Source: Deuterostichococcus epilithicus
Taxonomy: Eukaryota > Chlorophyta > Trebouxiophyceae > Prasiolales > Stichococcaceae
Reading direction: 5' to 3'
Assembly: GCA_033439295.1 (NCBI GenBank)
Contig: JAVTLE010000005.1
Location: 3,584,501 to 3,648,500 of the forward strand
DNA: 64,000 bases
In this document: positions 9,849 through 51,952 of the stretch, piece after piece
Layout of the letters: each line of letters opens with the position of its first letter
Position numbering within the stretch: position 1 is the stretch's first letter
Translations under genes and position numbers: made by a program
The notes under the pieces: generated by a model
Database searches by the model: none
What the model was told of the DNA's origin: nothing
The model's input: the letters and a program-made list of their open reading frames with translations, nothing else

Positions 9849-12800
9849 GTGAGAGCTCTGAACCCCAATACCAGGGTGGAACATTCCTTACAAGGACAGA
9901 ATTTTTAGACTGCATAACAGAGGCTTTCTGCCCGCTAGCGCGAACCAGGTTGGCAACTTGTCGGCTGACAGCCGCTGCTGCGGACAGGACGATCCCACCG
10001 CTGGGCCTGCTGTGATGGAACTGGGGCGCATTGAGGTCATGCCATCACAGTTTAAAGTTTGGCAAGCCTGGCAGGCGACGTTAGGGCTGGCCATGATGGC
10101 TAAATGCTGCAAACCGAAAACCATGTCACGACACATGCCTACACCTTCATCCCGGGGCCGGTTCGTGAATGGCTTTCGTTGAGCAGCCGTTCTTCATGAT
10201 GGCCAGCCCTAAAGTGGCCTACCAGGCTTGCCAAATTTCAACTGTGATAGCATTAAAGGTGTAGGCATGCCTCAGCAGCCTGGCTGCATCTGCATGACAT
10301 GGTGCATACGCGTATGACCTCCACCACAAGGCCTGCTCAGGGGTGTCTCCGGCAGGCTGCTGTCTGTCACCACCCTCGATGGAGCACCATGCTTCTCGTT
10401 TGTCTTCCGTTTGCAGACGGAGGTGATGCTGCGGCGCACGGGCTGGTGTATCACCACCGCTTGCCAGATGCACGTTCCTTGTCAGCTCCTGAAGCTGATG
10501 AGATTACCAATAATACCAACATTCCCATCATCGCAACGCCATTGCTTTTTTCTGTTTCATCATGCAGTCAGCGGTCGCGCTGCAGCGTATGGGCAATCAT
10601 CTGCAGGCTCGCCACCAGCTGGAAGATGCAGAACTTTGACCAAGTTTCCACAAAGTCGGCCACAGCAATCTATATGACCAGCAACTTCGCTCCTTGCCGC
10701 AGTCTGCGGTCACGCTGCGGCGCATGGAAACAAGAAGATGTGTTAGGGGTCGAAGAAAAACATGCGCCTGTAGTGTGGCCGCGTGCCGGAGGCAGTCGCA
10801 AAGACAAGAGTCGCATGCACTCACACATTCGCGTTCCCCCCCGCAGTCGGCGGTCACGCTGCGGCGCATGGGCACCTACCTGGAGTATGGGCGGGTGCCG
10901 GAGGTTCTGCTGGTGCCGCTGGTGCATGCGCTGCTGGGCGCGCTGCACATCAGGCAAGCAGGGCGTGCCGTGTCCCGGCCTGCCGCTCGACTGACCTGCT
11001 GCTGCATGGGAGGATCCCGAAGCGCCACCTTGTGCGGCTTGCCTCACCCCACACCCCCATCGCAGGCTCCCACAGGCCATCGCTGCGCGCGCCTTGCTGC
11101 GGCAGGGCCCGCAGCAGCGCGCTTCAGCGCCGGCCGCAGTGGCACTGCCACTGACCGGGCCGTTGCCCTGCATTGCTGGCTCCAGACCTGTTTCGCAGCA
11201 CCTGACCGGGTGCCGTGCACCAGGCGTCTCCACGTTCCCCTTGCAGGCTGTCGTCACTGTGGGCCCCCACGGGCGAGGCGCTCGGCAAGGCGCTGGAGCA
11301 CGCGCCGGGCGTGGCGTGGCCGCTGGCGCACGCGGCGCTGGCCGCCACGCAGGCCGGCTTCCTGTCGGGCGCCGACCGCGGCGCCGCCGCCCTAAACATG
11401 TGCGTCGGGGGGAGTGGTCGGTTCGAACCTGCCGAAATAGCATTTGGAGACGGCCGTGGCATGGCCGCCGGTGCTCGGCTTGCTGGTCTTGTGTCGGCAG
11501 CTTGTCGCTGTGCTGGCTGGAATTGCAAGTGGCGGTGCCGCCGTGAAGCAAGGGCCTTGGCTGACATGAACACTGGACTACTTCCTGCATGTGTGGACTC
11601 TGTTGGGCCTGCTTCACGCTGGCTGACGACTGTCAACCAAACCAGCCTGCATGAGGCTTCCCTGGTCGTTTGCGCCTCGCTTTGAATTGGTCCCTTCGAC
11701 AGCGAGTTGCATGCCGCAAGTTCGTCTGCAGTAGCTGGCGTTATGGACGATGATCAGTTGCATGCTGCTTGCTGCCCTTGAACTTTATTTGCGCTGAAGA
11801 ACATCTGGGATGCGTCAGGCTGTACCCGAGCATCAATCGCTGAAGGGCAGCGCGCGACTGAGCTGAGGCTCGACCCTGCAGAGACGATGATGAGATCAGC
11901 GCCGCGCAGCAGCAGGAGCTGGCTTGGCGATTCGCTCGTGCGCTGGCATTGGGCAGCCCTGGCGCGCATGGCGGCTGCACCGACGCCGCTGTCCGGCTCA
12001 GCCACCTAATCAAGGTGGGCCCCCACATTTCTTTGAGATCAAGCCCGTCCAATCGAGTGCTCTGGCACATGCATAGGCGGAATGCATGCCACATCAATGC
12101 CGCTGTCAGCCACGGTCGTTGATTCGGCGCCAATGATTCACAAGCTGCTTGGTCTGCTGTTGCTGCCGTACTTGAGGCTCACAGACTGCTGCGCTGTGAC
12201 GATGCGACCGTCGGGGCGTGCAGGCCTGCTCAAATTTTGTGTAGTACGCCTCAAGCTCAGAGGGGCTGAAGACCTCTCGCACGAGCTGGTTCCCGTTCCG
12301 AACCCTCAGCAGCCATGGCAGGGCCAGCTCGGTGCCATGCTGTCAACACGTGCCATCCGAATGGGGCTGTCGAATGGGTCGTGCTGGACTCGCCATCCTG
12401 ACAGCACTCGCACTGAGCAGTGCTGCCGTCAGGTCCCTATGGTTTTCGTGCACCCATTCGGCGTTTGCATACAGGATGCCGAACAAATTTGCTGGGACCC
12501 GACGATCCTTTCTGCCCGAGTTTTGAAGGCACTCATCCATTCGAGAGCCTTGCTGCATCAACTTGCCGCGCTTTGGTCTGGGATGGAGTGCTGTGATGTG
12601 CACATGAGAATCCGATGCTGAACAATCAATGCACAATCTGCAGGATGTGTGAACCGAGGCAGCGCCACCACCTAAACCTGATCGCGAGTGGAAACCACCA
12701 CCAGGCTGAACCTACACCGAGCCGTTGACGTCGCCGGCATGTACTGTGCTTGCGTCAGGCCCTCGCCAAGGCGCCGGCAACACTGTTGGAGAGCCGCTCG

Positions 12801-15800
12801 CGGGACTGGGTGCCGCTGCTGCTGGCCTACGCTGCCGCCAAGTCGAGCGGCGAGGCTGAGGCGGATGCGGCCACCGACAGGGCGCGCAGCGGCGCCGGCA
12901 GCGTGGACGCTGACGCTTCAGACTCGGACGGTGATGATGCGGATGCTGCGTTGCCGGCGGTGGCGGCAAGCGTCGTAGCGCCAGCTGATGCAGGCGCTGC
13001 TGCGCCAGCGGCCGACGGCGCGACAGCGGCAGCGGAGGCGACTGGCGGCGGTGCGCTGGCGTCGCACATCGGCGGCCAGGCCTGGCGGGCGCACCTCAAG
13101 GTAGATTGCCATGAAAGATCGTGTGGCGAGCTGCCCCGCCATCCTGCATCCACGGGGCTGCCCTCCTTTGCTGCAAGCTCGTCGACCTCTGCCACGCCGC
13201 CGGCTGCCTGCGGGGTGTCACGCCTGCTGGGGAAGTGTGCTGCGCCAGGAGTGCGCCAGGCTCTGGAAGCTCTGCCTCTCGCGTGTCAGGATGTTGAGGA
13301 TGACCTGAGAGGATGACTGTCCTCACAGCCTCGTCATGCCCTGAGACCCCAAACCCTGCTATGCGAGCAGGAGTGGCTGGCGGTGGTGGGCGGCCTGAAA
13401 GGCGCCAAGGGGCTGGCGCGGTGGCAGGAGGTGCGGCGGGCGGTGGCGCTGCAGCTGGGGGACATCGAGCCTGGCGTGCAGCAGGCAGCGCTGAAGTGCA
13501 TGAAGGTAGGGCCGTTAGGGTTTAGGGTTCAGGGTTTGTGCATGGCCGGGGCGCCGGTGCACCCTAAAAGCAGCTCTTGTGTTCCTGTGTGGCAGCTGTG
13601 GTATCGGGTTCAGCGAGGAGACTTGAAGAGACTCGAGCGTGCTGAACTGGTTCGCACTTTTCAGTGCGCAGTGTGATATGCACACCAGGACGCTCCGGCG
13701 CCCTGGTGCCCATGTCGGCGCTGCGCTCTGGCAATTCAGTCACCATGCACAGTCAGCAGATGGCAGGTCGTCCCAATGCCATAACAGTTTCTAAGCTGTT
13801 GTGGGTTATCAAACCCTAAGGGATCGTCCCCACAGGCGTTCAAGGTCCGGTTCGTGACGGCCTACATGGAGCGGCTGCTGCGGCTGGCCGACAACTCGAC
13901 GCTCCGCTCGGAGCTGGCGCAGTTCCCGCTGGCGGTGGACGCCGAGGACGCGGTCCTGCCGGAGCACCGCGCGGGTGCGTCTGGTGTGATGGGCGTGAGC
14001 AACAGCCTAGTGCGAAACTGGATGTCGTGCAAAACTGCCTTGTGTTGTGTACAGGCGCCCCTGAGGAAGGGCGATCACCGTCCCCTGTTCAGACGCGATG
14101 TCCGTGAACGCAGTGGTTGCATTTCAAGCTTGCCTTGCGGTTGCTCTGACATCACAGTTGCTGCTCGTGGCAGCACTCCCATCCAAAAAGCGGCTCTGTC
14201 AAAAGGTGTCCGCTCCGTTTCAATGCCCCTCCATCCGAAAGTGTGGGAGGAGTGAAGGGAAGTTGTTGCTGCAACCTCGAGACCGCGGCGCTGCACTTGC
14301 TCACCGCTGCCAGGACAGCCCCATCACCGCATGCGGGATTGCCTGCTGGAAACCATACTGCTCTCCCATACTGCAGCTGCTCGACTGCTGAGCACGGTCT
14401 CCGCTCGAGTCTCGCAGGAAAGCAGGGATGACTGTGTCGGGCCCTGTTCCCGCAGGCCTGGCCGCGGTGCTGGCGCGGCTGCTGTTCCCCAAGCTGCGCA
14501 AGCGCACTGGGCGGCTGGGCGGGCGCGGCGCCCCCGGCTCCGCCCGCGCCGCCATCCTCAACTTCTTCGCCGCCGCGCCGCCGGCCGAGCTGGCGCCGCT
14601 GCTGCAGCTGTTCCTGGAGGCGCTGGCGCCCGCGTTCATGCGGCCCCAGGGCGCCGGCGGCACCGACGGCGAGCCAGTCGATGACACGAGGTGGGCGCTG
14701 TGGGCTTAGGGTTTGAGGTTCACTGTCACCACTGTGCCTCCAGCTCTGGCAATTGGAGCATTCCTGGCCCAGAGGTCCCAGCCTACTCCATGCCTACCAT
14801 GTGCCTGCGGCGTTGCAGCTGCCCTCTCGGGGTATCTGGCGTCGTGAGGAAGGGCTGAAGGGAAGGTGGGGCCTAGTGCAGCGCTTTCGAGGTGTCTCCG
14901 GATGCTCGGGATGACTTCTGGCACACTGACAGCCGCTTGTGTCAATGCAATGGGCGTCCAGCTCCCCAGGCCCACTGCGGATTGGCTCATCTCAGTGTGC
15001 TGCATGGGCCCCCTGCATGGCGAATAGTGGGCTGAGACCGCTGGCAGGTTCCAGCATGACGTCTTGTCGTGCAACGTCACCCTGTGTCCCATTCGGCAGA
15101 CTGGTGGAGGCGCCCTGGTGGGCGCCCGCACTCGGCAGCCGCGGCCTGGCCTGGTGGCTGGCGGCTGTGGATCCGCGGGCGCTGGCAGGCCAGCCGCTGC
15201 GGCGGCGTGTCGGCTTCCTGCACGCCGCCGCCGACCTGCTCAAGCACCTGGGCCACCAGCTGCAGGTCTGATTGCGCGGTGATGGGTGGCGGAAGCGCTC
15301 TGCTGTTGTGTTGTAAGGCTTAAGGGTTTAGGGCACAGGAGGCATCTCCCCTGTGGGCTGCAAAAGCGTTTTCTTGCCCTGCCTGCATGCACCGTATCAT
15401 CAGGTGGCAGACTGCACCTCGCACGAGGTGTCATGCAGCACGAAAGCCGAGCGCGTCTCTGCTGCTTGTCACTCTGGGCCAGGCACATCCCATCATGTTG
15501 GGATGCTGAAGTTTAGCATGCTGCAGACACCTCCTCCTGAAGTGGTTTCCTCCTGAGAGAGCAAGCCTCAATTGTCATCTCACAATGCATGGCACACGAT
15601 TCTTGATCGCTGACGCAGCGGCATGCCGTCACCACCTCGCACTAAACCGTCGTGCTGCTCCCGCAGGCGTACCTGCCTCCGCTGCTGGCGCTGGTGCTGG
15701 CGGTCTTCGAGGAAGCGGCCGCCCCCATCGCGGCCGCAGCCAAGGTGTGTACCTGCCACCATGTCAATCAGGTCATCTGTTTTGGAGCATTCCCTAAGTA

Positions 15801-18800: not shown

Positions 18801-21134
18801 CTGACCCTGGGCCACTCGAGTTTCCCTTTCGGTCAAATTTTCGTTGGCCCTAACTCGAGACACCTGAAGCGCAGGCGCAAGGGCAAGGGCCTGGACGAGC
18901 CGGCCGCGGCGCGCGTGCTGTCGGTGCTGGCGGCCCTGTGGCGCCGTCTTCCTGCTTCAGCTTCCTCTGCGGCGGCGGAGACCGGCAAGCCGGCAGGCAG
19001 TGAGGACGCTCTGGCAGCGCATCCGCGCACGCTGCTGCTATCCTATGTGGCGGCGCTCTCGCCGCTGGCGGGCAGCCTGACGAGCCGGGAGGCGCGGCTG
19101 GGCCTGGCGGCAGCCGTCAGTGCCCTGGCAGCGGGCCCGCTGCCGGAGCTGCGGCAGGCGGCAGACCTGCTCGCAGGGCTCACCGCCATGTCGGCGAGCG
19201 CGGTGAGCTGATGCAGAGCAGTGCGGAACTCGTCCTGCTGGTCGACCCTGCCACTTATGTTCTGCATGCGGACACCTGGCTGTCGATGCAGGTTGCGAAC
19301 CTTGTGGTTTTGCAGCTGGATCTGCGATGAGGCGGTCGCAGGGTCGAAGTGTGGCTTGCCAAGGCAAGCAGGTGTTGCGAGCAGTAGTTCACGCATGAGC
19401 GCTCGTCATGCATCTCAAGGCTCAGGCTTTGCAGTTGCTGTGTGCAAACCGGGGTCGTTGTAGACCGCTCATTGGCTGCGCGCACACCGGGCCGTGCATC
19501 TGGGCAGTCGCCGCTTGCAGTGGTTGCATCGTATGCCCTACAAGCACCTATGGAACACACAGAGTCCGATCAATGCCAGCGCAGGGGAAATGTAACAATG
19601 CCAGCTGGCGGACGAGGAGAACCGTAAAGCATGGCTGGCGGGGTGCGGACCACCTGCTGTGGTGTTGCAATTCAGGACTTGAACCACGAGAGTGAACCAC
19701 GAGACCTGAGCGATGCACACCCTACAACGTGTGGCGGTTCCCTTCTTGTCAGGTGGACGAGGCAGACTACGACGCACGGCTGGCAGCGTATGGGCAGCTG
19801 CTGCCGGACGCCTGGGCGGGGCTGCCGCCGTGGCAGGCGGCGCCACTGGCGCACGCGGCGCTGGCCGACCTGCGCAACCCGGACGACATTGCACTGCGCC
19901 ATGCCGCCGCTCAGGTGGGTTTAGGGTTTAGAGTTTGGGGTTTGGGGTCTCGGTCTGGGGCCTCGACTACCCAATCGGCAAGGCTTGCGGCAAACAGCCC
20001 AAGTGACGATGCGCTACATCATGTTGCCGTCTCCGTGGGCTTTCATTCAACTATGCAATGCTGACGGCACAAGGCAACCGCGCTCATCTTGGGGCGGATG
20101 GCCCGGACGGCATTGTGCTTTCCATGCCTCCGCGGGGGTGCTCACCGCCAATGAGAAACTTTGATCCCCGCGCAGCCATTGGTCGGATCAGAGGGTGGGC
20201 AAAGCTTCTCATCCCCATGCATGCTGGTCGACTGAAGCACGCACTACTTGGCCACCTGCCCACCCTTGAAGTAGCGGCATTCCGGTGTTTAGAATGCGGC
20301 AATGGTGCAGCAGATTAGACACCATTTTGCCGCAATGGCAAAATAGTGTTTGCAATGCGGTGATGGTGCGGCATCCTAGACGCCATTGTGCCGCAACTTC
20401 AAAGGTGTTTTGGTCGCCAAGTGGTGCGAAGACGACGAGCAGACTCTACGTCTGCATATGGGGATCGAAACTGCACCATCCAGAATTCCGGTATCTGTCT
20501 GCCTGACCCGCATCATCCAGACAGGAACAACGCGCCGAGGAGCGCGAGCATCATGGTTTTATTGCCCCCAACAAGGAGGCGCTGGCAGCGTGCCCGCCTC
20601 CCGAGACCTGCACATAGGGAACACTGGGGCAGCACAATGCGCACAGTGCGCTGACCGCACACAGAGCCTTCCTTCCTACCATGCAGTGCCTATCCCTGCG
20701 TCTGCCAGGCTTTCATCTCATGCTTCATCTCGGTTCGCGATGCGCAGGCGCTGGAGCGTCTGGTGGACGGCGCGGCAGCGGCACTCGCGGCGGCGGCAGC
20801 GGGTGCCGGAGACGCGGCCGGCGNGCTGGGGGCGGTCGTGGGGGCGGGGGCCGAGGCGCCGCCCGGCGGCCAGCATGTAGCGCAGCTGCTGCAGCGGCTG
20901 CTGCTGCCGCGCATCAAGGCAACGCTCGGCGACGCCAACCTGGCGGTCCGGCAGGCAAGCATTGAATCATCTCATTATTCATGTCGTCGTCATGCATTTT
21001 GGTGGGCTGGCCTCTGCCTGAGTCTGCCGCCAACAAGGCATGTCGTGTGGGGAGGTGGGTGCCGCAGCGCAGTGTGTGGCTTCTTTTGCTGCTGAAGCTG
21101 CTGCTATCTTGCGGCACGAGGGCCCTTCAGCCCC

Positions 21135-21200
<66 letters not shown>

Positions 21201-24200
21201 ACCCAGGGTGCACGGAGATCATGCCCAGAGCTCTTATTATAAGAAATCCTCAATGGTCTGGCGGAAGGCTGTTGCTTTCGGCGCGGCATCGGAGAGGCAG
21301 CCAGCGTACTGCAAGTCCACAACCCTTTGCACGTTTCTTCCAGGCGGTGCCACGGATGGCATCTGTTGATGTGCAAACGCTGTGGTTCTGATATTCGCGC
21401 CCGAAGCAATGCTCATCAGCCCTAAAGTGTCCATGTCTCTGCCTGTGTCACACGCTGCTGCCCTTGGCGCGGTATCAGAGAGGCGGGCAGCGTCCTGCGC
21501 CCGCAACCCTTTGGACAATTTCTACAGGCAGCGCCTTTGGCGGCAAGCGTTGATGTGCAAACGCTGTGGTACTGAAGATCGTGCCTGAAGCGATGCTCAC
21601 AGCCTGTTGCCGTCCATGTCTTTGCCTGTTTCCCATGCCTGCCGCGCTGAGCTTCAGGCGCTCAGCGCGACACACATCCATTGCCAATGTTGTTTCGAAC
21701 TTCTGCTGTGGCGTCACCAGCAGCGCTCGGCGTCACGGCAGCTGTCCTGGCATGCCGCCATGGTGGCAAGGCCTACCTGCCCGCCAAATATATAATTTCC
21801 ATCAAGCGATATGGGACGGTGCCGCAGTCTGCTTCGGGTTTCAGGGCTTTGCAGCGCGAACGATACCCCATGCTGTCGTGCGACAGGAGCACCTGGCGCT
21901 GCTGCGGCGCATGGCGGTGGCGCTGCCGGGCACCTTCCCGGAGCTGGCGGCGCTGGCCGATGCGGACGAGGAGCGCGACTTCTTCGCCAACGTGGCGCAC
22001 CTGCAGCTGCACCGCCGCACGCGCGCCCTCGCCCGCCTGGTCAAGGTGCAGTATGAGGAAATACGAAAACAGAGGACATGCAGCTGTTGCCGGCTGGCAG
22101 CATCATTCCGGCAAATGGCCATGCAACACCCTGCGCCCGCAGCTGCGCCGCCCGCACGTGCGGCCCTTGCCCGCCTTGTCAGGACGGTGAAATGATGCGC
22201 AAGTCCTGTGGAGCACCACGTGCCATCGCAATGCATGGAAGGCAGTCGGGCTAGGATGTGGCTCTGCCGCAATCCGGACATCTCAAGATCCCGTCTTGTG
22301 AAGTCGTGAAAGCTTTCGGCCGGCTGCGCATGCGAATCCCCTGTCGCTGCTTGAGCACGGCTTGCTGTCTGCTAGCAAACACGCAGTCGGGGGGCCCGTT
22401 CCCCAGCCGCCACAGGGGAGTCGTGTGGCTCACACAGCGAGACCGCGCAGCTTCTGTAGGGACAATTTGCATCGTATCGTGGCAGCCCCAGCAGCAGCAG
22501 CCGCGGTGTCTCGTGGCGGTGTCAAGCTGGCCGGCTCCAACTGCGCCCTGCGTTCATAAGCCAGGGAATGGAACGTTGGACACCGCGCGTCTGCGCCATG
22601 TTTCAGGTGATCGGGCCGGGTGGGTCGGGCGGCCGGCGCCCGGTCCTGGTGGTCGTCGTGCTGGGCGTCAAATCACATTGTGTTGATTTCACACGAAAAC
22701 CCCGCAACTCATCCATTGGTCCTCGACAACTGCCAGCGCCTTCGCGGCGGCGTGCTGCTCGCCATCGCGGTGCCGCTGTACACACCGCTGCGCGCACACC
22801 TGCTGCAGCATTTAAGGTGCATAAAACTCGATCCTTCCAACCGGCAGGTCGTGCAAGAGGGGGCGCCTGGCGGGCAGCGCCTGGGCGTGGGCGTGCTGCT
22901 GGGCGTCGCGGTGCCGCTGCTGCAGCAGGCGCTGGTGTCGGGGCGCGCGGGCGAGGGCGGCGGCCACGACTTCAAAGACTCCGACCGGGACCGAGAGGCC
23001 AACGTGGTGGCGGCGGCGGCGGCGGCGGCGGGCGCCGTCGCGGGCGCGCTGCCGTGGCCGGCGTACAGCCAGCTGCTCGGCCGCTTCCTGCGCCTGCTGG
23101 CGGCGCACGGGGAGGAGAAGAAGGTGCGAAGTCAATGGCCTTGCTTGTTGCTGTTCACTGCGATAGAATTTCGGCACTGTGTACCTGTTTTGACACTGCT
23201 CAGCATGTGCTGACTCCTGACGCTTTACGCGTATGCCGCATCCTCGATGTCGAATGGCATGGTCGTTGGCAAGTCAATCACTTCACCTGCTGTCAAACTG
23301 TGCATCCACGCCGACGATGCAGTTCAGACATGTGCAGAAAACTTGGCTGTGCCAGAACAGCATGGGTGCTCTCCTATGCCAAGCATGATATCTGTCAAGC
23401 TCGTCCAGTCGGGTGCACCACTTGCACACCATGGTAGGTTGCCACGACATCGGCAACCATGTGCAATTTCTGACGCAGGGCGTGGTGCGCGCGGTGTGCG
23501 CGATCATCGACGCCTTCCACTTCCTGCCGCCGGCGGAGGCGGCGGCCACTCCTGATGCCGCAGCGCCCGCCGCCGCGCCGGCGGCCGACGTGGCTGAAGC
23601 ACAGGGCCACGGCCCCGAGGCTGCGGACGGTGTTGACGGGGCGGAGTCTGACGACGAGGCGGCCGAGCTCGCCGACGGGGCTCCAGAGGGGGCGAGAGCG
23701 GCAGCAGGCAGCCGGCAGCAGGAAGCAGAGGCTGCGGCGGCGCAGGCGGCGGACATCCGGGCGGCGCTGCTGAAGCGGGTGCTGCCGGGCCTGTCGGCGC
23801 AGCTCGTCAGCAAGGGCGACGTGAGTTGGTGTTCGGTTTCACGGCTGCTAAACCCACCTCTGGCGCGTGCCTTGCTACTGCGCCAAGCTGCTGTGAACCC
23901 TGCAGTCGCCACGGTGGCACCTGCTCCCAGGGTTCACAGCCCTGCAGCTGCACAGCCGGCGCAATGGGGCTAAGGTCGCTTCCGACTTTCGCTCCGACTC
24001 GTGTGACGCATGTGTCGTGCCGTGCCCCCATTTCAGCGCCGCGCCAAATTGCATGCACTCTGTGCGTGCCCCAGTGGGCCTGGCGGTGGTCGAGACGCAG
24101 CGCCTGGTGCCAGAGGAGGACTGCTTCCACGGCTTCCGCTGCTTTTGCTGGATTCCACATGTGCATGCAATTGACTGCAGGCGGTGCGTGCCCCGGTGGG

Positions 24201-27200: not shown

Positions 27201-30200
27201 GTAGGGATGCGAGTATCGCTGACAGCATTGCTTATGTGTCTGAATACAGCGGTTTGAAGCGGGGCAGCCTGGGCGGGCGGACGCCGGAGGCCGTTGCACA
27301 GCTGGACCCGCTGCTGCCTCTGCTGGCGCGGGCGCTGCGATCGCGGCACGCGACCGCGGCGTCGCTTGCGCTGCGGTGCATGTGCCACGCCGTGCGGCTG
27401 CCGCTGCCAGGTCAGACTGCGCTCCGAATGCACGGTTGTCAGATGAGGCACGCAGCAGTAGGCGGCATCGCACCTTGGGCAGGCACGCCGTCACACAGCC
27501 TGAGGCGACCACAGCTGCATGTCCTGGTCTTCGAGCACCCAAATCCTAAACCCTACATGCTTGTGATCCCCGCTTGGCGCCTGAAGCTGCCATTTCTCTC
27601 AGGACTCTGACGCCTGCAACCGCAATGCACCAGCAGGCTGCAGCGCTAGCAGATTTTATGTCTGTGAAGATGGATTTCCTGGCGTGCAGGCATGCTCGAT
27701 TGACGCGCTCAAGCAGGCTGTTCTGCGCTCACCACAAAGACACGCGTGGTGCTGCATTGGTTGATATCGTCACTGTGTGCGGTCAACCAATTCTGCGACT
27801 GGTGTTCACAGATGTTTGCGCTTTGCTGCAAACACAGGCCTCGCGGCGGCCGCCGGGGACGCCGGCAGGGCGGCGGCGGACATCCTGGCCAAGGCGCCGA
27901 CGACGGCGTCGCCGGTGGCGCAGGACTGCCTCAAGCTGCTGGCCGGGCTGCTGGCGGCGTCTAAGGGGTGGGTCGTGGTACTGCATGCGAAAGGTTGTGG
28001 CACATGCCGTTTCGCATCTCGCTCACGAGTCTGGCTTGCGTCTGCAGCAGGCTGACAGATGGCTGTGCTGGTGAGAGCTCGTTCCGACTGTCGTGAACAA
28101 AGGGAAAGGTCAGCTGCATCGGGGCTACTGCCGCCGCGACATGGCTGCACTGCATGTCCTCCGAGTACCAGCTGGGCAATCGAACCTGCAGCTCAGGCGC
28201 ATGCGACCTTAGCAGTCCCTGCTGGCACAGTCAATGCTTCAGTCGATCCGGCCTCTCCCATTCGCCAGCTATGGCCCTCGGCCACCTGTGTGCACGGAGC
28301 ATAACGGCGCCCGCGCTTGTTGGCAGGGCTTGTACTCGTATATGCATGGCATTGGGCTGCAGGGGCTGACGCTCGAGACATGTTCATGTTGGCTGCACGG
28401 CAGCAGACCTCTGGGTGCTGCAGGGCGACTACATTGACATTGCCTGATGCTGAGGCTCTAGAACCTTCGACCCTAAAACACCGAAACCCTGCGCAGATAT
28501 AAGCCCACCACACCGCAGCTGAGCCGGCTGCTGAAGCTGGCCTTCGACGACATTGAGGAGGCCGCCTCCCGGCAGACCGCCTTTGCACTGCTCAAGGTGC
28601 GCAGCCAGTGTAGCTTTTCCATTCTCCGCCCGGAGCACTCTTGCCAGGGCTTCAGCCTCTGGTTCGGTGCCAGTTTGGCCCAAACAAGCAACGCTGGGCG
28701 GCGGCTGATGGTGGTGGGTCAATAGTAGCTGCTGCTACCTTGTTTTCGTGTCTGCTCTACATCTGCTTTGTTACTGGCCACGAGCACGGTGTGCCGCCCG
28801 GACGGCGCTGGAACACCAGCCGTTCATGGCAGAGGTCTGCAATGTCGTCCGCCGCCGCCGCGTCGATCAGTCCTCCAACCACCCTTACACTTCGCCGAAC
28901 GAGGTCACCTGCATTGCACTGCGTCTGTGCTCATACAGGCGGTGCTGGGGCGGCGGCTGGTGGTGGCGGAGGTCTACGACATCATGGGCCGCGTCCAGAC
29001 GCTGCTGGTGCGCGCACACAGCCCCTCCGTACGCCAACTCGCCTCCTCGGTGAGTCCCTCCCTGAAGATCTCGAACCCTTTCATGTGCTGACTGGCCGGT
29101 GCTGCGGCAGACGATGAACATGCAGCGTCTATCGCCGTGGGCTCAGGGGGAGTACATTGCAACCCCATGTATCGCCGTCGTGTGCTTTTGCCCAGCCCCC
29201 TTGCTGGCCGCAAGGCCAAGCCAGCAGACACGGTCGGCTCCTTCTCGCCCAGTACACATGGTCATGGCGGCCCTTCTGCTTTGCCAGCAACCTCAAGTAT
29301 GGTCTGCTCCCCCAGGCGCTGCTGCAGTCCCTGCAGGACTAGCCCGTCAGCGAGGCATGCTCGCAACGGCACCTGGCGCCTTCCTGAGATCGACTCGAGA
29401 AAGGGCTATGTGCAACCCTTGACTTGCTCTTGTGTCTCGCGCAGACGCTGCTACAGTTCCTGCTCGACTACCCCGTTGGCGAGGCGCGCCTGCAGCGCCA
29501 CCTGGCCTTCCTGCTGGCCAACCTGGGCTACGAGCACGAGGCGGGGCGGCTCGCCGTGCTGGACACGCTCGCCGCCGTCGTCGCCAAGTTCCCGCAGGAG
29601 GCCGTTGACGCCTCGGCCGAGGCGCTGCTGCTGCCGCTGGTGCTGCGCCTCGTCAACGACCCCGCGCCGACGTGAGCGTCCCTCCCGTTGCCCTGCAACC
29701 CATGTGAAGGAATTGTTTCAAGGGAGTGCTGCACGGCAGAGTATTTGCCGCTCTGGTGCTGCGCCTCGTCAACGACCTCACGCCGGCTCGATTGTCCCTT
29801 CTGCAAGCCGCACGTCTGCTAGCCTCAGATTCTGCCTGACACGCAGGACAGCTCGGTTTTCTCTTGCACAGCAGTTGTTCTTTTTTCACGCCTGGAGTGT
29901 GCCCCACTGAATTGACCTGCGCAAGGCATAGAGAGACAGCACCTCCTGTTACATTGTGCTGACGCAAAACCAAAAAGGGAAGATTGGTGACATGACGTGA
30001 GATTGGTTTTGGATCTGTCCGGAGCACTGCTGCAGGCTTTGCAGGGACTTGCCAAACGGTGCAGACCTGTGCGGCTGTTAGTCGTGGCGGCTGTTAGTCG
30101 TGGCAACCAGAGTTTCTGGCTCGTTCACCTAGCCAAGTGCCGCAATACATGCACGCATCTCTCCAATATCGAGTGGGAACCGGGTTCGCATGTTCGGTAC

Positions 30201-36042: not shown

Positions 36043-39000
36043 GTGCAACAACTCCTAAGCTCCTGTGCCGCCCAATCCGAGGCTGGGCTAGGACGCTGTC
36101 GGCAGCTCAACCGCTACATACTAGACTGCATCAAGGTAATGATAGCCCCGCTGCCTGTTCTTGGTGAATCGTCCGTCTGCATAGTTTTGAGGGAGCTCTG
36201 GCTTGATCTAATGCAACATGCATGCCAATTCGGCCGCGGCGCACGCCTCAGCCACGCCACATCCTCGATGCTTACTCCTTGCCTTCTCCGTGCTCGCTCT
36301 CAGGCTGAAGGGACGCGATGTCTGCGCTGCACCTTCACCCGAATCAAACACATCAACACGAAAGCGAGCCTCTGCCTTGCTGTGCGCAACCCCGGGCGCT
36401 TCGCCCTCAAGAACGGCACAGCCGGTGGGCTTCCGAATCTTGGCAAGTAGAAGCTTGCGAGACAGCTCATGGCCTCTGGTGCCGGTGCATGCTGCTATGC
36501 TGCCAACAAGTGGTCGACAGCTGTCGTCAACTAGCAAATCCCTCAGCAATGCAACGGCAGATGCAGTGTGCTCCGAGGTTTCGTGGAGAGGGTCAATATG
36601 GCAACTGAGTCGTTGACCTTGCCAGTGTTGTACTGTGCGTGCAATGGCAGGTGATTGTTGGCGGGGTATAGCAAAGGAGGGAATGGCTTTCATGCTGAGG
36701 TGGTGCGGATGTCGACTGCTGCAGTGCCAAAGGCGGGTCTGCAGCCGGGCAGGTCGCCAGACGGCGCGGTGGACTGCCCGGCTGGAACCGCCAAGAAGAA
36801 TGCTGGGTCGTATCGCTGCCCAAGGTGTACGGGAAGGGGATACCAGCCCCAGACAGGTCAAAACCGGTGCCTCGTCTGCCCTAGTGGCTATCACATCAAT
36901 ACCGCTCGCACGGCCTGCGGTGCGCCTCCCAATTGTGATTGAATCCTGGCTACTAACGTTGACGAGTAGTCCTGTCAGTTCTGGTCTATTCAGTTTTGGC
37001 TTGGAGATGGAGTGGGCATGAGCAATGTGTGGGCGAAAAACCTGTGGAGCACATTGCTCTCGCAGTGGAACAAGGGTTGATAGATTGTCACAAGGGTGTA
37101 GTTGCAGGCCGGTTGTGCAGCTGAGGACATGTTGCGTTTGCCGTGCCGCAATTCTTGTCATACATTGTGCCTATGGGAGTTTGTATTGCCATTTTTTCCG
37201 CCGCCCAAACCGCCGCCTGCGCCCCCACAGCACCCGGCTTTGACGCCGCCACCGTTCCCACCGCCCAGCCCCNCGCCTGNGCCTCCATTGTACGCAACTT
37301 CGAAGCCGCCGNCATNACCGCCGCCATCGCCGCCGTCGCCGCCGCCCGGCCCGCCACCTACGCCTCCGCCGTTCCCACCTTCGCCGTCCTTGCCGTCGAG
37401 CCCGCTGCCTGCCATCCCCACCTCCGACGCCACCGCCGTCCCNGCCNCCCAGCNAGCCNCCTTCCCTTCCACAGTCCCCACCTCCAACGGCACCGCCGGT
37501 CTCGCCACCTACGCCGCCACCGTCCCTGCCGCCCAGCCCNCCNCCCGCGCCNNCGCCATTCCCACCTCCACTGCCGCCGCCGTCACCGCCGCCCAGCCCG
37601 CCGCTTGCGCCACCGCCNTCCCTACTTCCGATGCCACCGCCATCACCGCCACCTGTGCCACCGCTTAGCCCGCCGCTTGCACCTTCACCGTCCCGACCTC
37701 TGACGCCGCCGCCGTCCCCGCCGCCCAGCCCGCCACCCACGCCGCCGCCATTCCCACCTCCAATGCCGCTGCCGTCCCCGCCACCCCCTCCACCGCCTAT
37801 GCCTCCACCGTCCCCACCTCCGGCACCACTTGCGATGCAACCACCGTCGCCGCCACCCACGCCGTCGCCGTCCCCGCTGCCCAGCCTGCCGCCTGCGCCA
37901 CCGCCATTCCCACCTCCAATGCTGCCGCCGTCCCCGCCGCCCAGTCCACCGCCTATGCCTCCACCGTCCCCACCTCCGACACCACCTCCAATGCCACCGC
38001 CATCGCTGCCACCCACGCCTCCGCCGTCCCCATCGCCCAGCTCGCCGTCTGCGNNACCGCCATTCCCACCTCCAATGCCGCCGCCGTCCCCGCCGCCCAG
38101 CCCACCGCCTATGCCTCCACCGTCCCCACCTCCGGCACCACCTCCAATGCCACCGCCGTCGTTGCCACCCACGCCGCCGCCATTCCCGCCGCCCAGCCTG
38201 CCGCATGCACCTCCACCGTCCCCACCGTCAAGGCCACCTCCGACGCCGCTGCCGTCCCCGCCACCTTCACCGCCGCCTAGCCCGCCGCCTACACCTCTAT
38301 CACCCCCACCTCCAACGCCGCCGCCGTCCCCGCCGCCTACACCTCCGCCATCCCCACCACCTGCGCCGCCGCTGGGCTGCCCCTTGAACCTTGCAACTCG
38401 TGAGTCCAAGGAGCTTGACAAACTGTGCTTCGGCTTGCCGGCGAACTCTGCCCTTTGCTGTTGATGACAATAAATTCGGTCTTTTGTTTGTTTGAATGGC
38501 AATGCTTCTCACAGCAAGTTCTCTGAGTGAATGGCTGCCATGTGCAGGTTGCATGGTCCGCAATGACGCATCAGTGTGCCGCTCCCAAGATGGCTTATAC
38601 TTCTCTGTGAACCTTGAGGTGCGATCTGGCTGTCGTCGGCTGCATCTACGATGTGGAACCCTTGCAATCACGTCAAGCTTGAGCAGTCTCAATGTCGTGT
38701 GAGGTTCGAAACCGAAAACTTCTGCAATCGCTACAGTTGAACGCAACAGCAGAGCTTGCAGCAGAGCTTATGGTGGCATGCCAGGCACCCTACTACGGCG
38801 CTGACACGACACACCCGTTTGGCGCCTTTGAGCTTTGGTGCGTGCGCTTATCTTGCAAACGCATGTGGCTGCTTGCCACCAGATTGAGCCCTTGCATGCT
38901 AAGGGCGGCCTGTAGCTCCATTAGTTGGCTGCCGGCTGCTGAAGTGCTGCTTGCCCGGCACTGCATAATGCGACACCAACATGCAACGCCTTCCAGCGGA

Positions 39001-41848: not shown

Positions 41849-44800
41849 ATGCCACGCGAGGTGGTCTGCCTGCACGTCGGACAGTGCGGCAACCAGATCG
41901 GCAGCGAGTTCTGGAAGCGGGTGAGGCTGCAGCTGGTGTGTCCGCAAGTCTGCGCGGGCTGGCGTGCCGGTGTGGCTGGTGCCGCGGCAGCTGTTGTCTC
42001 GTGTGTCCCTCAAAAGTGCTGTCCCACATGGCTGCAGCTGTGTCAGGAGCATGCGCTGGCGAATGACGGCACGCTGCAGGACAGCGCCACAGAGGTGGGA
42101 CGCTGCCTTCTGGGCGAACACCGCTCCCGCGCGCGGCCACGACCGGCCGCTGCACCTGCTCGTCACTCGCCTGCTGCTGCAGGCTCGCGACTGCGGCTGC
42201 CACGACCTTCCAGGACCTCTGCTGCGCCACATCGCCTCACAGGCGTGCGGGGTTGCTTGCACAGGGGCAGGACGCAAGGGATGTGTTCTTTTCAGAGTCT
42301 GACGACGGCCGCTACACTCCCCGCGCCCTGCTGTTCGACCTGGAGCCAAGGTGACTCGCTCCCATCCGCCTCTCTTGAGCATCTCAGTGCGGTCCGTCAC
42401 TTGTGCATGGTGTCTGGCACGAGACGGGACCGCCTTGGCAGCGCAGCCTCCCGAGCAGGTTGCGAAAGGTAGCAGAGGTAAAGCTCGATGTTGCTGCGCT
42501 TGAATGCGCGTGGAGGCAGGCAACAACGTTCATGCTCAGGCAGGCGCAGGCGGCGGTCGCCGGGAAGAAAGTAGGTGAAAACATGTGTTGGGAAAGCAGA
42601 AAGAATCGAGTTTCGCTGCTGAAACCTGAATACAAACACCTGCCCCGACCTGAGGACAGGCAGACTCCTCTGGAGTCCATTGTGACTGCAGCAGTCGTGC
42701 AGCATTTACTCATCTTTCCACTGACCTCCAGGGTGCAGGTGGGAACACTGGAGAATCTGATCAGTCTGGCAGTATCCATCTTCCTTCCAACACAATAGCA
42801 CAGTTTTGTGCGCCCTGCGCAGGGTGATCAGTGGCGTGCAGGCCGAGGAGCTGGAGAATCTGCTCAATCCGGCGCGGCGTCCATCTTCCATTTGGTGCAA
42901 CAGCACAACGTGTGTGCGTCCTGCACAGGGTCGTCAATGGCGTGCAGGCGGGGGAGCTGCGGGGGCTGTTCAACCCGGAGTCCATCTTCCTGTCGACTCA
43001 CGGCGGCGGCGCTGGCAACAACTGGGCGTCGGGCTACGACCAGGCGGCCAAGTCGGCGGAGGACATCCTGGACATGCTGGGTGAGGGTTTTGTGAAGTGT
43101 TTGAGCCCTAAGTTTGGAGACTTGGGATACCCAGGCAAGTTTGAGTCGGCATGTCGTTCGCATGCTGGGAGTGCCGAAGGAAGGTCAAGGTGAGGGTCAT
43201 TGGAAAGGTTTCTACAACGCCTTGCAAAATGAGCCGCCTCCGCGGCAAGCAGGCTGGGAATGAAGCGCCACACCCCTCGTGGCGGCGGGGCACCATGAGC
43301 ACGCGTCCTGTTGCTGGGCCTCGGCTCCATTTCCATGTGTTTCAGGCGAAAACTGCAGGGCGGGAGGCACGCACCGGCGCCAGCCTGCAGGTTTCATGTC
43401 AAGCCCTCTCTTTTCATGTCGGCCATGGCAGCACGCTACTGCATTCTTGGCGCTTCTTTGCTGCGGTATTGAAGCTGCTGCTCTTCCGGCCCACCTGCAG
43501 AGCGGGAGGCGCGCAACAGCGACAGCCTGCAGGGTTTCATGCTGAGCCACTCCATCGCTGGCGGCACCGGCAGCGGCATGGGCTCGCTGCTGCTGGAGAC
43601 GCTGAGCGACCACTTCCCCAAGGCGCTGGTGCACACCTACAGGTTGCCGCTTTCTCGCACACTGCAGTGCTTGACACTCCGAAAGTCAGTCGTGATCTCT
43701 GCCGCAGGCTGGGTCACACGTCATTGGAGCTGTCCGCAGTTCAGGCTCTGAAGAGACCAGCGTCACCATGCTGCATCGCGCCCGGCTCGAACACAGAATC
43801 ACATGTCGTGCTGTGGATCTGCTCCGCAGCGTCTTCCCGCACCGGAGCGACGACGTGGTTGTGGAGCCATACAACTCGGTGCTGACGCTCAAGCGCCTGA
43901 AGCACCACGCAGATGCCGTCACGGTGCGGCCCCGCCGATTCATAACAAAGCATCGCAGAACCGGGGGTCTGCGAGCGGTTTCTGCAACCTCACATCGTCG
44001 CAGGCTGCGGGGCTGCTGCAGAAGAGTTTCCGGGAGCAGGGGGTCACAGGCTCTGCCCGCTGCAGTGAATCGATCCTTGATTGGGCAAGGATGACAAGCC
44101 ACCTGTCCCTGATCTCGTGCTACACAGACGTCGCAGGGAAAGAGTGCAACACTATAGAATGACAGAGCACGTCTGACCTCGATCGCAGGTGCTGGACAAC
44201 CCTGCTCTGGATGCGCTGGCGCACAAGCAGCTGGGCTTCAGCAACCCCACAGTGGCGCAGATGAACAGCCTGGTGGCCGGCGCCATGGCGCTCACGACCG
44301 CGCCGCTGCGCTTTCCCGGTGTGCCTGTACAGTCTCTTCTCTTTCCTGTGCCCTGGCGACTGCCGTTGTGCAGGAGGTGCGGGCTTGCACCTTCCGCAGC
44401 GCCGTCGGGTGTAACATGCCAGGGGTGCTGGTGATGCCTTCACGCCCCTGGACAGCCTTGCACGCCCGCATCCGAAACCCAAGGTGCATGCAACAGCCCT
44501 GCCCGATCACGCCAGCGCCACACACATGCCCGTGCCTGCCGCTGCCGCCCGCCACAGAGTCCTTTTGCGCAACCACCCGCACAGGCCCCATGTTCAACGA
44601 CATGGCCGACCTGCTGGGGCTGCTGGTGCCGGCGCCATTCGCGCACTTCCTGCTGGCGGCTGCCGCGCCGCTGGCGCCGGGCGTGCGCGCCAGCAGCGTC
44701 CCGGACGTTATGCACCGCCTGCTGCTGCCTCGCAACCTGATGGCCAGCCCGCCGGACGCCGCCGCCCTGGCCAAGCAGCCGCCGCGCTTCCTGGGCGCGG

Positions 44801-46198: not shown

Positions 46199-46733
46199 CG
46201 CCGACCATCAACACCGTGGGTGGTGGCCGAGGGCGGAGCTGTGGCTGGCCCCGCGATTGCTGCAGCCTTTGTATAGAGTGGTCAAGCTGCTCGTTTTGTG
46301 GCGCGCTCTGCCTGCGCCAGATGCCCAAATTGGCCAATGAAGGGACTGCTAGATGTCACGCAGCGCTAGACGCTGGCACGAACACGAGTTGCAACGTGCG
46401 GTAGAAGCCTCGAAGCGGTCAGGCAGTCTCGAGGCAGTTAGGTTTGGGCTTGAGGAATTTGCTACAGAACAGCACTTTGCGCTCGAACGACACACAAACA
46501 GATGGCGGTAGGCAATCTACTGTTGCATCCTGTCACTGAACCAGTTTAAAAAAACTAAGTGGTCCCGGTTGCCTTTCTATACTGTCACAACCGTCATGCG
46601 GCGTTGGGACCACGTCGGTTATATCAGATTCTTCAATAATCTGCACAGTCCGCCCGTAGCTGCAGCAATGGAACGCTCACTGTCAGAAAAAAACCGGTCG
46701 TGGTGCAAGCACAGCAAGCACTTGTCGAAGGCT
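46199..46733. other. Convergent intergenic region (gamma-tubulin and rhodanese 3' ends)
   Basis: About 535 bp between the gamma-tubulin stop and the last plausible end of the minus-strand rhodanese gene. It should contain both 3' UTRs. I see no further gene or repeat. Confidence 0.4.
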
Positions 46734-48990: not shown

Positions 48991-49508
48991 CACAATGAGT
49001 CTGTACGAGTTGAAGTACTACAACGCGGAAAAACCAGGCTCGCAGTTTCCAGGCTCGAAGGCACAAGAGCAAAAAGATTCTGTTCCAAGAATTGACGGAG
49101 CAATGAGCGTGGTCCTGCCGTTCGATGGACAGGCCCACTCGGACTCTGCTGACCTCGCTTGGTGACGATCTCATCATAACGATGTGACAATGAGGTGACG
49201 CAAATGACGTTGCCACCATCGGCTTCGACTCGAAACGCTGGCACGTAAACGAAAGCGTATGTGCGGGCTTCAGGGTGCAGCTAGACGCACGACGCTGCTT
49301 GGTTTGCGACCGCAATCTGAAGCAGCCGCAATCTGATCGCACGTGAGTGTGAGATCAGAGATATTTTGGAGCTTTTTCGTGTCGGGCACTACCTCTTCTG
49401 AAGTATTGAAACGGACGGAACGCAATCTAAACATACGACCAGTCGCGCGGCATCGTACATTCAGAGAGGCAGAGGAACATGCAGCTCCCGCTGGGCCGCC
49501 ATGTCGCC
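48991..49508. other. Region between the rhodanese 5' end and the VPS2 3' end
   Basis: About 520 bp. It probably contains the first exon and promoter of the rhodanese gene. A minus-strand open frame with an ATG near 49342 is a candidate but has no decisive support. It also holds the VPS2 3' UTR. Confidence 0.35.
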
Positions 49509-51952
49509 CTACGACTTCCGCAGGTTGTTCAGCCGGGCTTGGAGGTCGTCATCAATGCCATCCCCCTCTGACACCCCCATGCCGCCACCGCCGCCGCCAC
49601 CTGCACTGCCGCCACCACCACCATAGCCGCCAGCACTCCCGCTGCCGCCCGCAGGAGGTCCGCCGCCGCCATGGCGTGGGCCGCCACCGCCGCCGCCGCC
49701 GCCCGCTGACTCTCCAAGCGGCTCTGCCATGGCCTCCTGGATGACAAGAGCCACAGCGTTTCAGAAGATCACAGCTTGTGCGGGTGGCCACGGTGCGATG
49801 GCACAGCATGGCAAAAGCTGCCCTGACGGTAGGATCGCGGGAGACCACAACATACCAACAATAAGGCCAGCAGGCCACGATGCACGCCAACTTGCAATTC
49901 TCTCCCTTTCCACATCTTGCTCTGCCACTGTCCAGACAGCAGCGGGCAACGTCACCGGCCTGCTGCACAGCCGGTGCTGTGGTATGCCCTGGCGCATTAA
50001 GCAGTGTGCTGTTCCCTGCTTGTGCTGGCTCTGCTTCGAGCACAAGCAGCAGGCAGCCCACATCACTGACCTGACGAACTGGCTCTGCTGCGGCGCGTCC
50101 GGGCGCCGTCAGCAGCGTGCTGTTGAGGTCGATGCCAATCTCGTCCAGCACCGAATTCACCAGTTCGTCTGTTTCGCCCTCTTCGTCCTCGCCCTGTTGC
50201 AAGATGAAGAATTGATCACATCTGAACTTGCTTGTCGAGATCAACGCGTTCAACTGATGACCAGCTGTGATGATGTACCACCGCAGAACATGGACGGGCA
50301 GAGGGAGAGTTTGAACAGCTGGTCATCGGTTTTAGTCTGCTGATGCTCTGCTTGCACCCCGCATGCATTCTAAGCCCGACTGGAAGGCTGATGCGTTAGC
50401 CCGACTTCAGCGCAATGCAGGCTGGCTACAATCGCCGGCATGCTGGCTGCATCAGACTTGCGTCGGCTGCAGCTGCCAAGGGACTCATCCTCATCTTCAG
50501 GCAGCAGCCTGTTTGACATTCCTGCAGGCGCCTCACAGGCACTATCGAAAGCAACTTATGACGCCGCTGTTCATGCATTTGATCTAATTTGCAGTCATTA
50601 CTGTTTGCACCTCGAAGGCGTCATCGATTGCGTCGCCCATGACGTCGCTGGTCATCTCCATGCGCTCGTTCTGCATCTCAAAGTCCCGCATGATCTTCTG
50701 CAGCGCCGGCATGTTCATCTGTCGGTTCATCGCGCCCATCGCCTGCAAGAGGGCAAACAGGCCAGCCGTGAGTGCCCTGATTGGATGGTCGCGGGTGGCA
50801 GAGAACTGACGAGGCGATGAAACCACCTTCACAGCTTTCCTGTGCAAGCCACAGCCAGCTGGCAGTAGCAGAGCAATGTGCTGCACGTGCAAGGCCCGAA
50901 TGCAGGAATGTCTGGAGAGCTCGGCCCAACGGCCACGTCAGTCGAGAACGCTCACCCTGGTGGCTCCTCTCATGGCCTCTGACATAGCCTGCGTCGATTT
51001 CAGCGTCTGCAGGTACAGAACCACCGTCAGCAAATGTGCTGGCTGAACATCACCCGCATTCGAAAGCAGCAGCTGCGCGGCACGAGCAGAGGCGGCCCCA
51101 CAGCTGTCGAACATGCCATTGGCTGCATGCCGAGACATACATTGCCCTGCAGGTGGTGGCGCGTTCGACGCCACAGCAACAATAGATGTGTGCGCGCGCA
51201 TCCATGGAAAAAGGTTTCCAGATGTGATCGCAACCCACCGCCATGCGTAGCGACACAGCCTGCAGCTGCGACTTGAGCTGGTACATCTTGGTGATGGCGT
51301 GCCGATTTCGCACCATCGACTTGGCCATCACCTTTACCGACTCCTGCTCGCACACACAGGTCAAGACTCAATGGAGGTGCAATTGCGACTGCAGCCCGAG
51401 AAAACAGCCTATGGTCCCTCTGAGTGTCGCACCAACTCGCGGCAGGGCTTGAAGCAGCACTCGGTAATCCCCTGTACACCCCCAAGCCGAGCTGCAGCGG
51501 CCACCAGGTGCAGCTCGAGTCGCAGCAAAATGACAAGCCGGCTCCGGAGCGCCCACCATCTGGTTGGCTTTGGCCATCTTCTTGATCTCCGCGATCAGCT
51601 TCTTGTCCTGATTCTGCAGCCCCATGCGCTCGCGGTCCAGCTCCCGAATGGCCTTGTCCAGCATGCGCTTGTTCTCCCGCAGCAGCTCTGTGCAAGGACA
51701 GGCAGACGGACGGTGACTTATAGTGGGGCTTCTTCAATGCGCGGATATGCAACGGTGGTCATGATTTCAGTGCACGACAGCTCAAATGAGCAGGAAGCGT
51801 TCGTAGAGCCACCGTCGATGCAAAGCCTGGCAGCAGGATAACGTGCGTCCATGTGTGCGCTGAATGGCATGTGCAGACGGCAATTGGCAGTGTGAGCGCA
51901 GGGTTCTCATCCAACCTGCCGGCGTCTTCTTCTTCTTGAAGAGGAACGACAT
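49509..51952 (-). CDS. VPS2: ESCRT-III subunit VPS2 / CHMP2, 7 exons
   Basis: Core ESCRT-III filament protein acting with VPS24 in endosomal sorting, cytokinetic abscission and membrane repair, disassembled by VPS4. Minus-strand exons: 51952-51916, 51687-51557, 51343-51239, 51006-50956, 50742-50611, 50193-50071, 49736-49509. Phases all agree: 807 nt, 268 aa. It starts MSFLFKKKKTP, the typical basic amphipathic N-terminus. Then come ELLRENKRMLDKAIRELDRE, AKSMVRNRHAITKMYQLKSQ, STQAMSEAMRGATRAMGAMN and DVMGDAIDDAFE. The C-terminus LQARLNNLRKS fits the MIM1 motif that binds VPS4 MIT domains. A Gly-rich linker of about 45 residues between helix 5 and the MIM makes it longer than human CHMP2A (222 aa). 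It is divergent from Psb27. Confidence 0.95.
49943..50015 (-). repeat. Echo of the 3' edge of VPS2 exon 6
   Basis: On the minus strand, the exon end coding NSTLLTAPGRAAAEPVRQ is followed 111 bp later, inside intron 6, by a decayed copy that would read NSTLLNAPGHTTAPAVQQ. Similarity continues past the donor into intron sequence (SDVGCLL against GDVARCCL when translated). This copy has CAGGCCGGT where the real donor is CAG|GTCAGT. Confidence 0.85.

Follow-up and report, generated by a model that had tools for sequence, protein, structure and literature searches.

Mutually exclusive exons are known to arise through tandem exon duplication. As described in the respective papers, a tandemly duplicated segment that crosses an intron-exon boundary gave rise to a new intron in the potato RdRp gene (PMC4974935), the duplicated segment lies inside an exon in the AGGT model of Rogers and Hellsten (PMC3443670, PMC4974935), intron gain by tandem duplication is reported for Drosophila (PMC2891723), and break repair is given as a known route to short tandem duplications (PMC8355091, citing Vaughn and Bennetzen 2014). 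The present analysis concerns decayed copies of exon edges, here called echoes, that lie in the adjoining introns of three genes (UTP20, a tubulin gene and a VPS2-like gene) in a 64,000-nucleotide stretch of the green alga Deuterostichococcus epilithicus (contig JAVTLE010000005.1; C5:3584501-3648500 of a 46.8 Mb, 21-contig genome), referred to as the window. About one in ten of the introns sampled in the window and in 23 further loci carried a decayed copy of the edge of an adjoining exon (55 echoes, 501 introns), and these echoes are likely to be relics of ordinary local tandem duplications, mostly of 75-150 bp, that spanned exon-intron junctions.

The potato case resembles the present one in that the segment crosses an intron-exon boundary and holds a putative branch site, pyrimidine tract, 3′ splice site and exon start, but it was one event giving a new intron, whereas here existing introns are mostly lengthened, both exon edges are affected, the count is 55 of 501 and the copies are old. 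Likewise, the AGGT model shares the tandem duplication of exon sequence and the turning of the spare copy into intron, but the units found here lie across junctions that already existed, and in most cases they are far shorter than the intron. Duplications made by break repair differ in that the breakpoints here are too decayed to show repair signatures (microhomology, filler). The genome paper of Chlorella variabilis NC64A may mention exon-like repeats in introns. The passages on 'intron' or 'exon' in the Coccomyxa genome paper (PMC3446292) mention no such repeats, and among titles and abstract openings, with few subscription journals covered, the pattern was not found described as a genome-wide feature. 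The mutation type is known; its frequency, the narrow size and the lack of recent examples are the noteworthy part and deserve a specialist's look.

Exon-edge echoes in the window and in 23 outside loci

A self-training Viterbi gene finder was applied to the window and to 23 further 10-kb stretches picked by coordinate prior to inspection (294 kb together, with 155 kb of intron examined in total), giving 502 introns between exons of at least 45 nt in 65 gene blocks; the exon models were predicted from sequence alone. Any exon shorter than 45 nt was counted as part of the intron, so that echoes modelled as exons stay hidden (several are evident). The genome is rich in introns and in GC: the predicted exons have a GC content of 69% and the introns 59%, and in the gene model donors resemble CAG/GTGCG and acceptors TGCAG/G (slash, splice site). 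The first and last 80 nt of each exon were aligned to the adjoining intron with no low-complexity filter, and a same-strand match with a score of at least 95 was taken as an echo unless another threshold is given. One intron of a Gly-rich gene (37-38.6 kb) was dropped from the main counts, which removed 2 of the 57 raw echoes and left 501 introns with 1002 edges; it is still included in the intron-length comparison and the clustering counts. This predicted gene (37158-38645, minus strand) is repetitive (period 156 bp) and contains scattered N calls.

The results showed that 55 of the 1002 exon edges carried an echo, acceptor and donor edges being affected about equally (30 of 501 and 25 of 501, respectively). 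In dinucleotide-shuffled introns, the comparison set beforehand as the refuting test of the original prediction, 9 of 5010 edges matched. Length-matched unrelated introns gave 19 of 5010, barely above the shuffles and hence no sign of an introner or transposable element, although this test is indirect and no genome-wide echo search was made. The remaining controls gave 6 matches of 1002 (reverse complement), 8 of 2792 (non-adjacent introns of the same gene, two or three positions off) and 12 of 874 (wrong-side intron). At a score of at least 115, echoes remained at 36 of 1002 edges, against 1 of 5010 shuffled introns, 3 of 5010 other introns, 1 of 1002 reverse complements, 2 of 2792 same-gene introns and 1 of 874 wrong-side introns. 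The control rates lead one to expect about 2-6 false echoes among the 55, and they exclude composition as the cause. An annotation-free scan found 99 direct and 9 inverted close pairs at score 115. Outside the window, 42 echoes were found in 405 introns, so that the choice of window does not account for the pattern. The predicted genome-wide habit stands in so far as echoes occur throughout the genome, but it is not supported as a present-day activity, since young copies are nearly absent.

Echo counts were over-dispersed per locus (P = 0.01) but not per gene (P = 0.12), and among 36 genes echo number was unrelated to the GC content of exons or introns and to the mean length of introns. Locus L009 (C3:300001-310000) has 8 echoes in 17 introns, compared to 1.9 expected.

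In the window, Pfam matches of the predicted proteins support the identity of the three genes (Tubulin, 3.9e-50; Snf7, 8.4e-40; UTP20_N, 1e-25). The UTP20_N match covers residues 265-419 of a 430-aa stretch that starts at exon 14, that is, later exons of the same gene; the names 'gamma' for the tubulin gene and 'VPS2' for the Snf7 gene are those of the original prediction. Each copy named in that prediction was tested against 200 shuffles of its own intron and beat all 200 (Table 1). All seven listed exon edges were thus confirmed, but the list had missed further edges, among them the donor edge at 22045 and the acceptor edges at 19753, 25545 and 28939; the weak echoes at 19753 and 25545 score 97 and 123, respectively. 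Two coordinates had to be corrected: the inner exon 31 copy lies at an offset of 141 by alignment and not 111, and the donor of UTP20 exon 42 is at 29671/29672 in the gene model and not at 29637. The nearest exon 14 echo is split by an insertion into 10703-10731 (score 118) and 10767-10792 (score 94), and shows 96.8% identity over 31 bp by BLAST. The gene model runs in frame through the inner exon 31 copy from 22737, which makes the exon 31 start uncertain. The echo of the exon 42 start, read from the sequence in the frame of the predicted protein, has a stop codon. Gene finders can mistake echoes for exons, as happened at 43359-43397 in the tubulin gene.

Table 1. Echoes and the corresponding functional exons in the window (window coordinates; functional exons from the gene model)
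Feature	Position	Strand	Offset	Score	Shuffles matching	Remarks
Outermost echo, UTP20 exon 14 start	10418..10443	+	430	94	0/200	AG at edge
Middle echo, UTP20 exon 14 start	10568..10627	+	279	120	0/200	AG at edge
Nearest echo, UTP20 exon 14 start	10703..10792	+	144		0/200	AG at edge
Functional UTP20 exon 14	10847..11031	+				
Donor-side echo, UTP20 exon 21887-22045	22133..22206	+	136-138	154		Absent from original prediction
Outer echo, UTP20 exon 31	22618..22669	+	241	124	0/200	
Inner echo, UTP20 exon 31	22730..22778	+	141	164	0/200	Open in the exon's frame
Echo, UTP20 exon 33 start	24060..24124	+	122	217	0/200	No AG at homologous place
Weak echo, exon 28939-29007	28803..28859	+	137	105		Absent from original prediction
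Echo, UTP20 exon 42 start	29317..29386	+	129	205	0/200	AG at edge
Functional UTP20 exon 42	29445..29671	+				Echoes on either side
Donor-side echo, UTP20 exon 42	29732..29787	+	116	164	0/200	
Outer echo, tubulin exon 4	42731..42794	+	209	102	0/200	
Inner echo, tubulin exon 4	42823..42889	+	106	163	0/200	AG at edge
Functional tubulin exon 4	42929..43080	+				152 nt, size common to two paralogs
Echo, tubulin exon 5	43360..43432	+	142	179	0/200	AG at edge
Functional tubulin exon 5	43501..43642	+				142 nt, size common to two paralogs
Donor-side echo, VPS2-like (Snf7) exon 50071-50193	49960..50013	-	111	117	0/200	

Properties of the copies and length of the introns

The identity of the echoes had a median of 0.78 (5th-95th percentile, 0.68-0.88), and 1 of 55 reached 0.90 or more. 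Mismatch rates at the three codon positions were near-even (0.206, 0.226 and 0.261), and 81 of 90 gaps were of 1 nt (62) or 2 nt (19), indicating that the spare copies are drifting non-coding sequence, in agreement with the original proposal that one copy stays functional while the other drifts. A coding or alternative-exon function of the echoes was rejected on the same two observations. With mutually exclusive exons, too, exon sequence is found repeated in tandem within an intron, but the copies here carry frameshifts, and the copied part covers 31-109 nt of exon edge in 53 of 57 raw echoes and reaches the far exon end in 2; whole-exon, in-frame copies, as expected of tandem or mutually exclusive exons, were not the rule. 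Transitions and transversions were about equal (355 and 350) and GC-to-AT changes were below AT-to-GC changes (0.142 vs 0.243 per site), on which grounds decay by methylation or by a process like repeat-induced point mutation was rejected.

At the place homologous to the splice site, 14 of 29 acceptor echoes still have AG and 8 of 26 donor echoes still have GT, together 22 of 55 (0.40) where about 6% is expected by chance. The copied units include the splice site and lie on the same strand, as had been claimed. The claim that many 5′ echoes keep an AG acceptor holds for those 14, but AC stands at this place in the exon 33 echo, CA in the inner exon 31 echo and CC in the outer tubulin exon 4 echo.

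The offsets of the 57 raw echoes ranged from 77 to 284, with 46 within 77-148 and 52 within 77-193. After correction for simulated detection, the birth density per start (arbitrary units) was 83-134 for the four bins covering 70-150 bp and 5-16 for the four covering 150-300 bp. No offset below 70 was observed, where about 4-5 would be reckoned from a flat density given the simulated detection efficiencies. The annotation-free scan, the design of which disfavours offsets below 60, showed a similar peak, with 46 of the 99 direct pairs at 100-150 bp.

The median intron length was 360.5 nt with an echo (56 introns, the Gly-rich one included) and 241 nt without; when the offset was subtracted, the median of echo introns was 238 nt, similar to 241 nt (P = 0.79). 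Long introns offer more room for a detectable copy, and this comparison alone is therefore no proof that introns were enlarged. The tubulin family is a cleaner test. The window gene has two paralogs, L002 (C5:3549781-3552924, on the same contig about 77 kb from the window gene) and L003 (C11:354406-357559), and exon sizes of 86, 152 and 142 are common to these three related copies. Intron 3 is 578 nt long in the window gene, with two echoes, compared to 321 and 219 nt in the paralogs, with none; the inner exon 4 echo of the window gene was looked for in both paralogs and was not found (scores 45 and 46). Intron 4 is 420 nt in the window gene and 465 nt in L003, each with its own echo, compared to 215 nt in L002 without one, and intron 5 is 563 nt in L003, with an echo, compared to 342 and 187 nt in the other two, with none. 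The original claim of intron enlargement is supported by the medians and by these shorter paralogous introns without echoes.

Of the 21 sites at junction 4 that distinguish the window exon from the L003 exon, the window echo agrees with its own exon at 19 and with L003 at 1; the L003 echo, at 19 diagnostic sites, agrees with its own exon at 13 and with the window exon at 3, which indicates that the two echoes arose separately. L002 has an echo of its own (score 125, offset 130) in a 159-nt intron, showing that echo introns are not always long. Among the other tubulin-matching loci, the six introns of L004 contain one acceptor echo (score 112), and the eight introns of L005 contain no echo at score 95.

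Possible origins of the echoes

The features observed, namely the same strand, both edges, inclusion of the splice site, drift as in non-coding DNA, a gain in intron length of roughly one unit and absence in some paralogs, are consistent with tandem duplication at the DNA level of a short segment that happened to span a junction. The duplicating step would most likely be the repair, by fill-in and end joining, of breaks that arise where opposite strands are nicked close together. The mRNA would stay unchanged only if splicing used the site adjoining the complete exon, presumably that of the downstream copy at an acceptor and of the upstream copy at a donor; the other exon fragment and its splice site would become intron, which would gain one unit. 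The spare copy would then drift unconstrained while the other is held by selection, and arrays of two or three echoes would result from repeated events. Duplications inside introns would diverge on both sides and so fade from view sooner. Most events would be old, meaning that the rate fell or that the events came in a pulse.

An alternative is exon-templated copying, in which an exon edge with a few bases is inserted into the intron, for instance via an RNA or template-switch intermediate. Ungapped identity of the intron part is at control level beyond about 8 nt past the edge (0.24-0.29 at 9-20 nt), and 34 of 57 alignments start within 1 nt of the exon edge, as such copying would lead one to expect. 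However, the query was exon only, so that a start outside the exon was impossible, and AG or GT is kept far above chance. Anchored extension into the intron was also longer than in controls (mean 19.8 vs 10.7, P = 2e-5, 43 testable echoes), and intron homology past the splice motif reached about 24 nt in a tubulin exon 4 echo and 38-46 nt in the VPS2-like donor echo. The kept dinucleotides and the extension speak for contiguity across the junction, yet the intron part is mostly unrecognisable; old tandem duplications, when simulated, give nearly as low an intron identity. Taken together, these data make exon-templated copying unlikely. Recent copies that were born divergent through error-prone copying were rejected by argument, as their intron parts should then show about the same similarity as their exon parts, which they do not.

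Another possibility is a role in regulating expression, the echoes being maintained because they work as decoy or alternative splice sites. Echo sites with a retained AG or GT (15 acceptors and 12 donors, no more than 2 nt from the homologous place) outscored random intronic sites (P = 1e-4 and 2e-5, respectively), but high scores are expected of copied real sites even without selection. Moreover, 33 of 55 echoes have neither AG nor GT at the homologous place, gaps and codon-position mismatches are as given above, multiples of three are not in excess among the offsets (13 of 57), and echoes are missing at some junctions of the tubulin paralogs. A regulatory role is thus very unlikely. The decoy sites of the original prediction are only partly supported, by the retained and high-scoring AG and GT.

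Creation of introns by duplication of an AGGT-bearing exon segment, with the whole intron being one unit, is exceedingly unlikely as a general explanation. The offset is close to the intron length in a few introns (456 and 456 in L015, 284 and 293 in L006, 103 and 100 in L008), but introns with echoes are mostly far longer than the offset (medians 360.5 vs 116), and some tubulin introns occupy the same positions in paralogs with no echo at that place. The pattern expected of intron gain, an offset equal to the intron length and absence of the intron in outgroups, was not found in most cases; a few candidates remain. Candidate duplication-born introns with similar ends and an offset near their length lie at about 5497 in L015, about 9233 in L006, 2566 in L008 (minus strand) and about 4556 in L009. 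Both tandem copies are wholly or partly modelled as exons at L025 9164-9469, L025 5632-5794, L028 5009-5246, L009 5611-5861 and L007 7147-7336, and these pairs are probably further echoes or potato-like new introns.

That the echoes are artefacts, produced by base composition, codon repeats or misassembly, is exceedingly unlikely: the window has scattered N and score 95 is reached by some reverse-complement edges (6 of 1002) and wrong-side introns (12 of 874), but the shuffle, other-intron, same-gene and reverse-complement controls stand at 0.2-0.8% and the wrong-side control at 1.1-1.6%, compared to 5-6% observed, and the copies differ by 12-32% (5th-95th percentile), unlike doubled reads.

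Age of the duplications and growth of introns

Neutral tandem duplication was simulated in two ways. A steady-state neutral simulation gave 281 edge and 131 internal pairs (about 2:1), 27% of echoes at an identity of 0.9 or more and an intron identity of about 0.5. In the old-event (burst) simulations, all events were about 0.4 changes per neutral site old. These gave an identity of 0.77, gaps of 0.031-0.040 per base (0.029 observed), dinucleotides kept in 0.32-0.39 (22 of 55 observed), edge-to-internal ratios of 585:141 to 498:54 at score 95 and 430:44 to 333:10 at score 120, and, starting 6 nt past the edge, an intron identity of 0.42-0.29 or 0.35-0.25, the observed values, 0.34 falling to 0.19-0.31, being slightly under the simulated ones. 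Agreements other than identity and gaps are predictions. According to this model, the enrichment at edges looks mostly like survivorship, the exon copy being static while an intron copy drifts, and an edge-targeted process would not be needed, as neutral old events are predicted to stay visible longer at edges.

Several observations weigh against the duplication reading. Steady-state neutral duplication had to be rejected, since it predicts 27% young copies where 1 of 55 was seen and its edge-to-internal ratio is off; the old-event simulations were given their age and indel rate in the light of identity and gaps, and the fits to these two are not independent. Identity 6-17 nt past the edge was 0.34, 0.29, 0.28 and 0.26, compared to 0.42-0.34 or 0.35-0.30 in the burst simulations. 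Intron-internal pairs are few, with 12 direct and 9 inverted at score 95 and 7 direct and 1 inverted at score 120; three of those at score 120 have offsets of 77 or more. Masking of exon-like stretches was applied to this real count but not to its simulated counterpart. Nor does the duplication model predict the narrow unit size, which is unexplained. At least one echo (donor side, L018) is a CAG-rich stretch, which the unfiltered edge test lets through. The window echo at tubulin junction 4 is equally near the L002 exon (0.775) and its own exon (0.764), which speaks against a simple dating. Finally, the near-absence of young copies is unexplained.

One of the few strong intron-internal pairs in the 294 kb lies in the window at 21266-21652, where 21268-21462 and 21454-21643 form a tandem pair of about 200 bp with an offset of 186 and 75% identity, absent from the original prediction.

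The scarcity of young copies extends beyond the echoes: in the annotation-free list at offsets of 70-200 and a score of at least 115, only 1 of 67 pairs had an identity of at least 0.90, and Tandem Repeats Finder (period of at least 60, at least 80% matches) found two arrays outside the Gly-rich gene in the 294 kb. Every old copy was once young, and any constant rate therefore needs at least as many young copies as old ones. Either duplication has slowed or near-identical copies dropped out of the assembly; the latter is not expected for copies at 90-95% identity.

Growth of introns is hard to date, as intron sequence has no fixed reference. In an exon-edge echo, one copy is pinned by selection, and the divergence of the other dates the event and shows the unit size. 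The 55 echoes, at about 120 bp each, make up about 4% of the 155 kb of intron, and in simulation roughly half of the copies of the main size class are detected; assuming a similar number of unseen internal events, it is plausible under the model that a tenth or more of intron length derives from duplication. If the pattern is true genome-wide, it would give a direct count of intron-lengthening events, and would imply that junction-spanning duplications are often tolerated and that the duplication rate changed over time. We put forward tentatively, as a possibility that is open to doubt, that an ancestral pulse of 75-150 bp tandem duplications, followed by a near stop, built a measurable share of intron (about a tenth or more with undetected events included) and left, when scaled up, thousands of fossil splice sites, of which the echoes would be the dated record.

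A perfect AGC repeat of 21 copies is present at 21136-21199 in the window and is a poly-Q UTP20 exon in the gene model.

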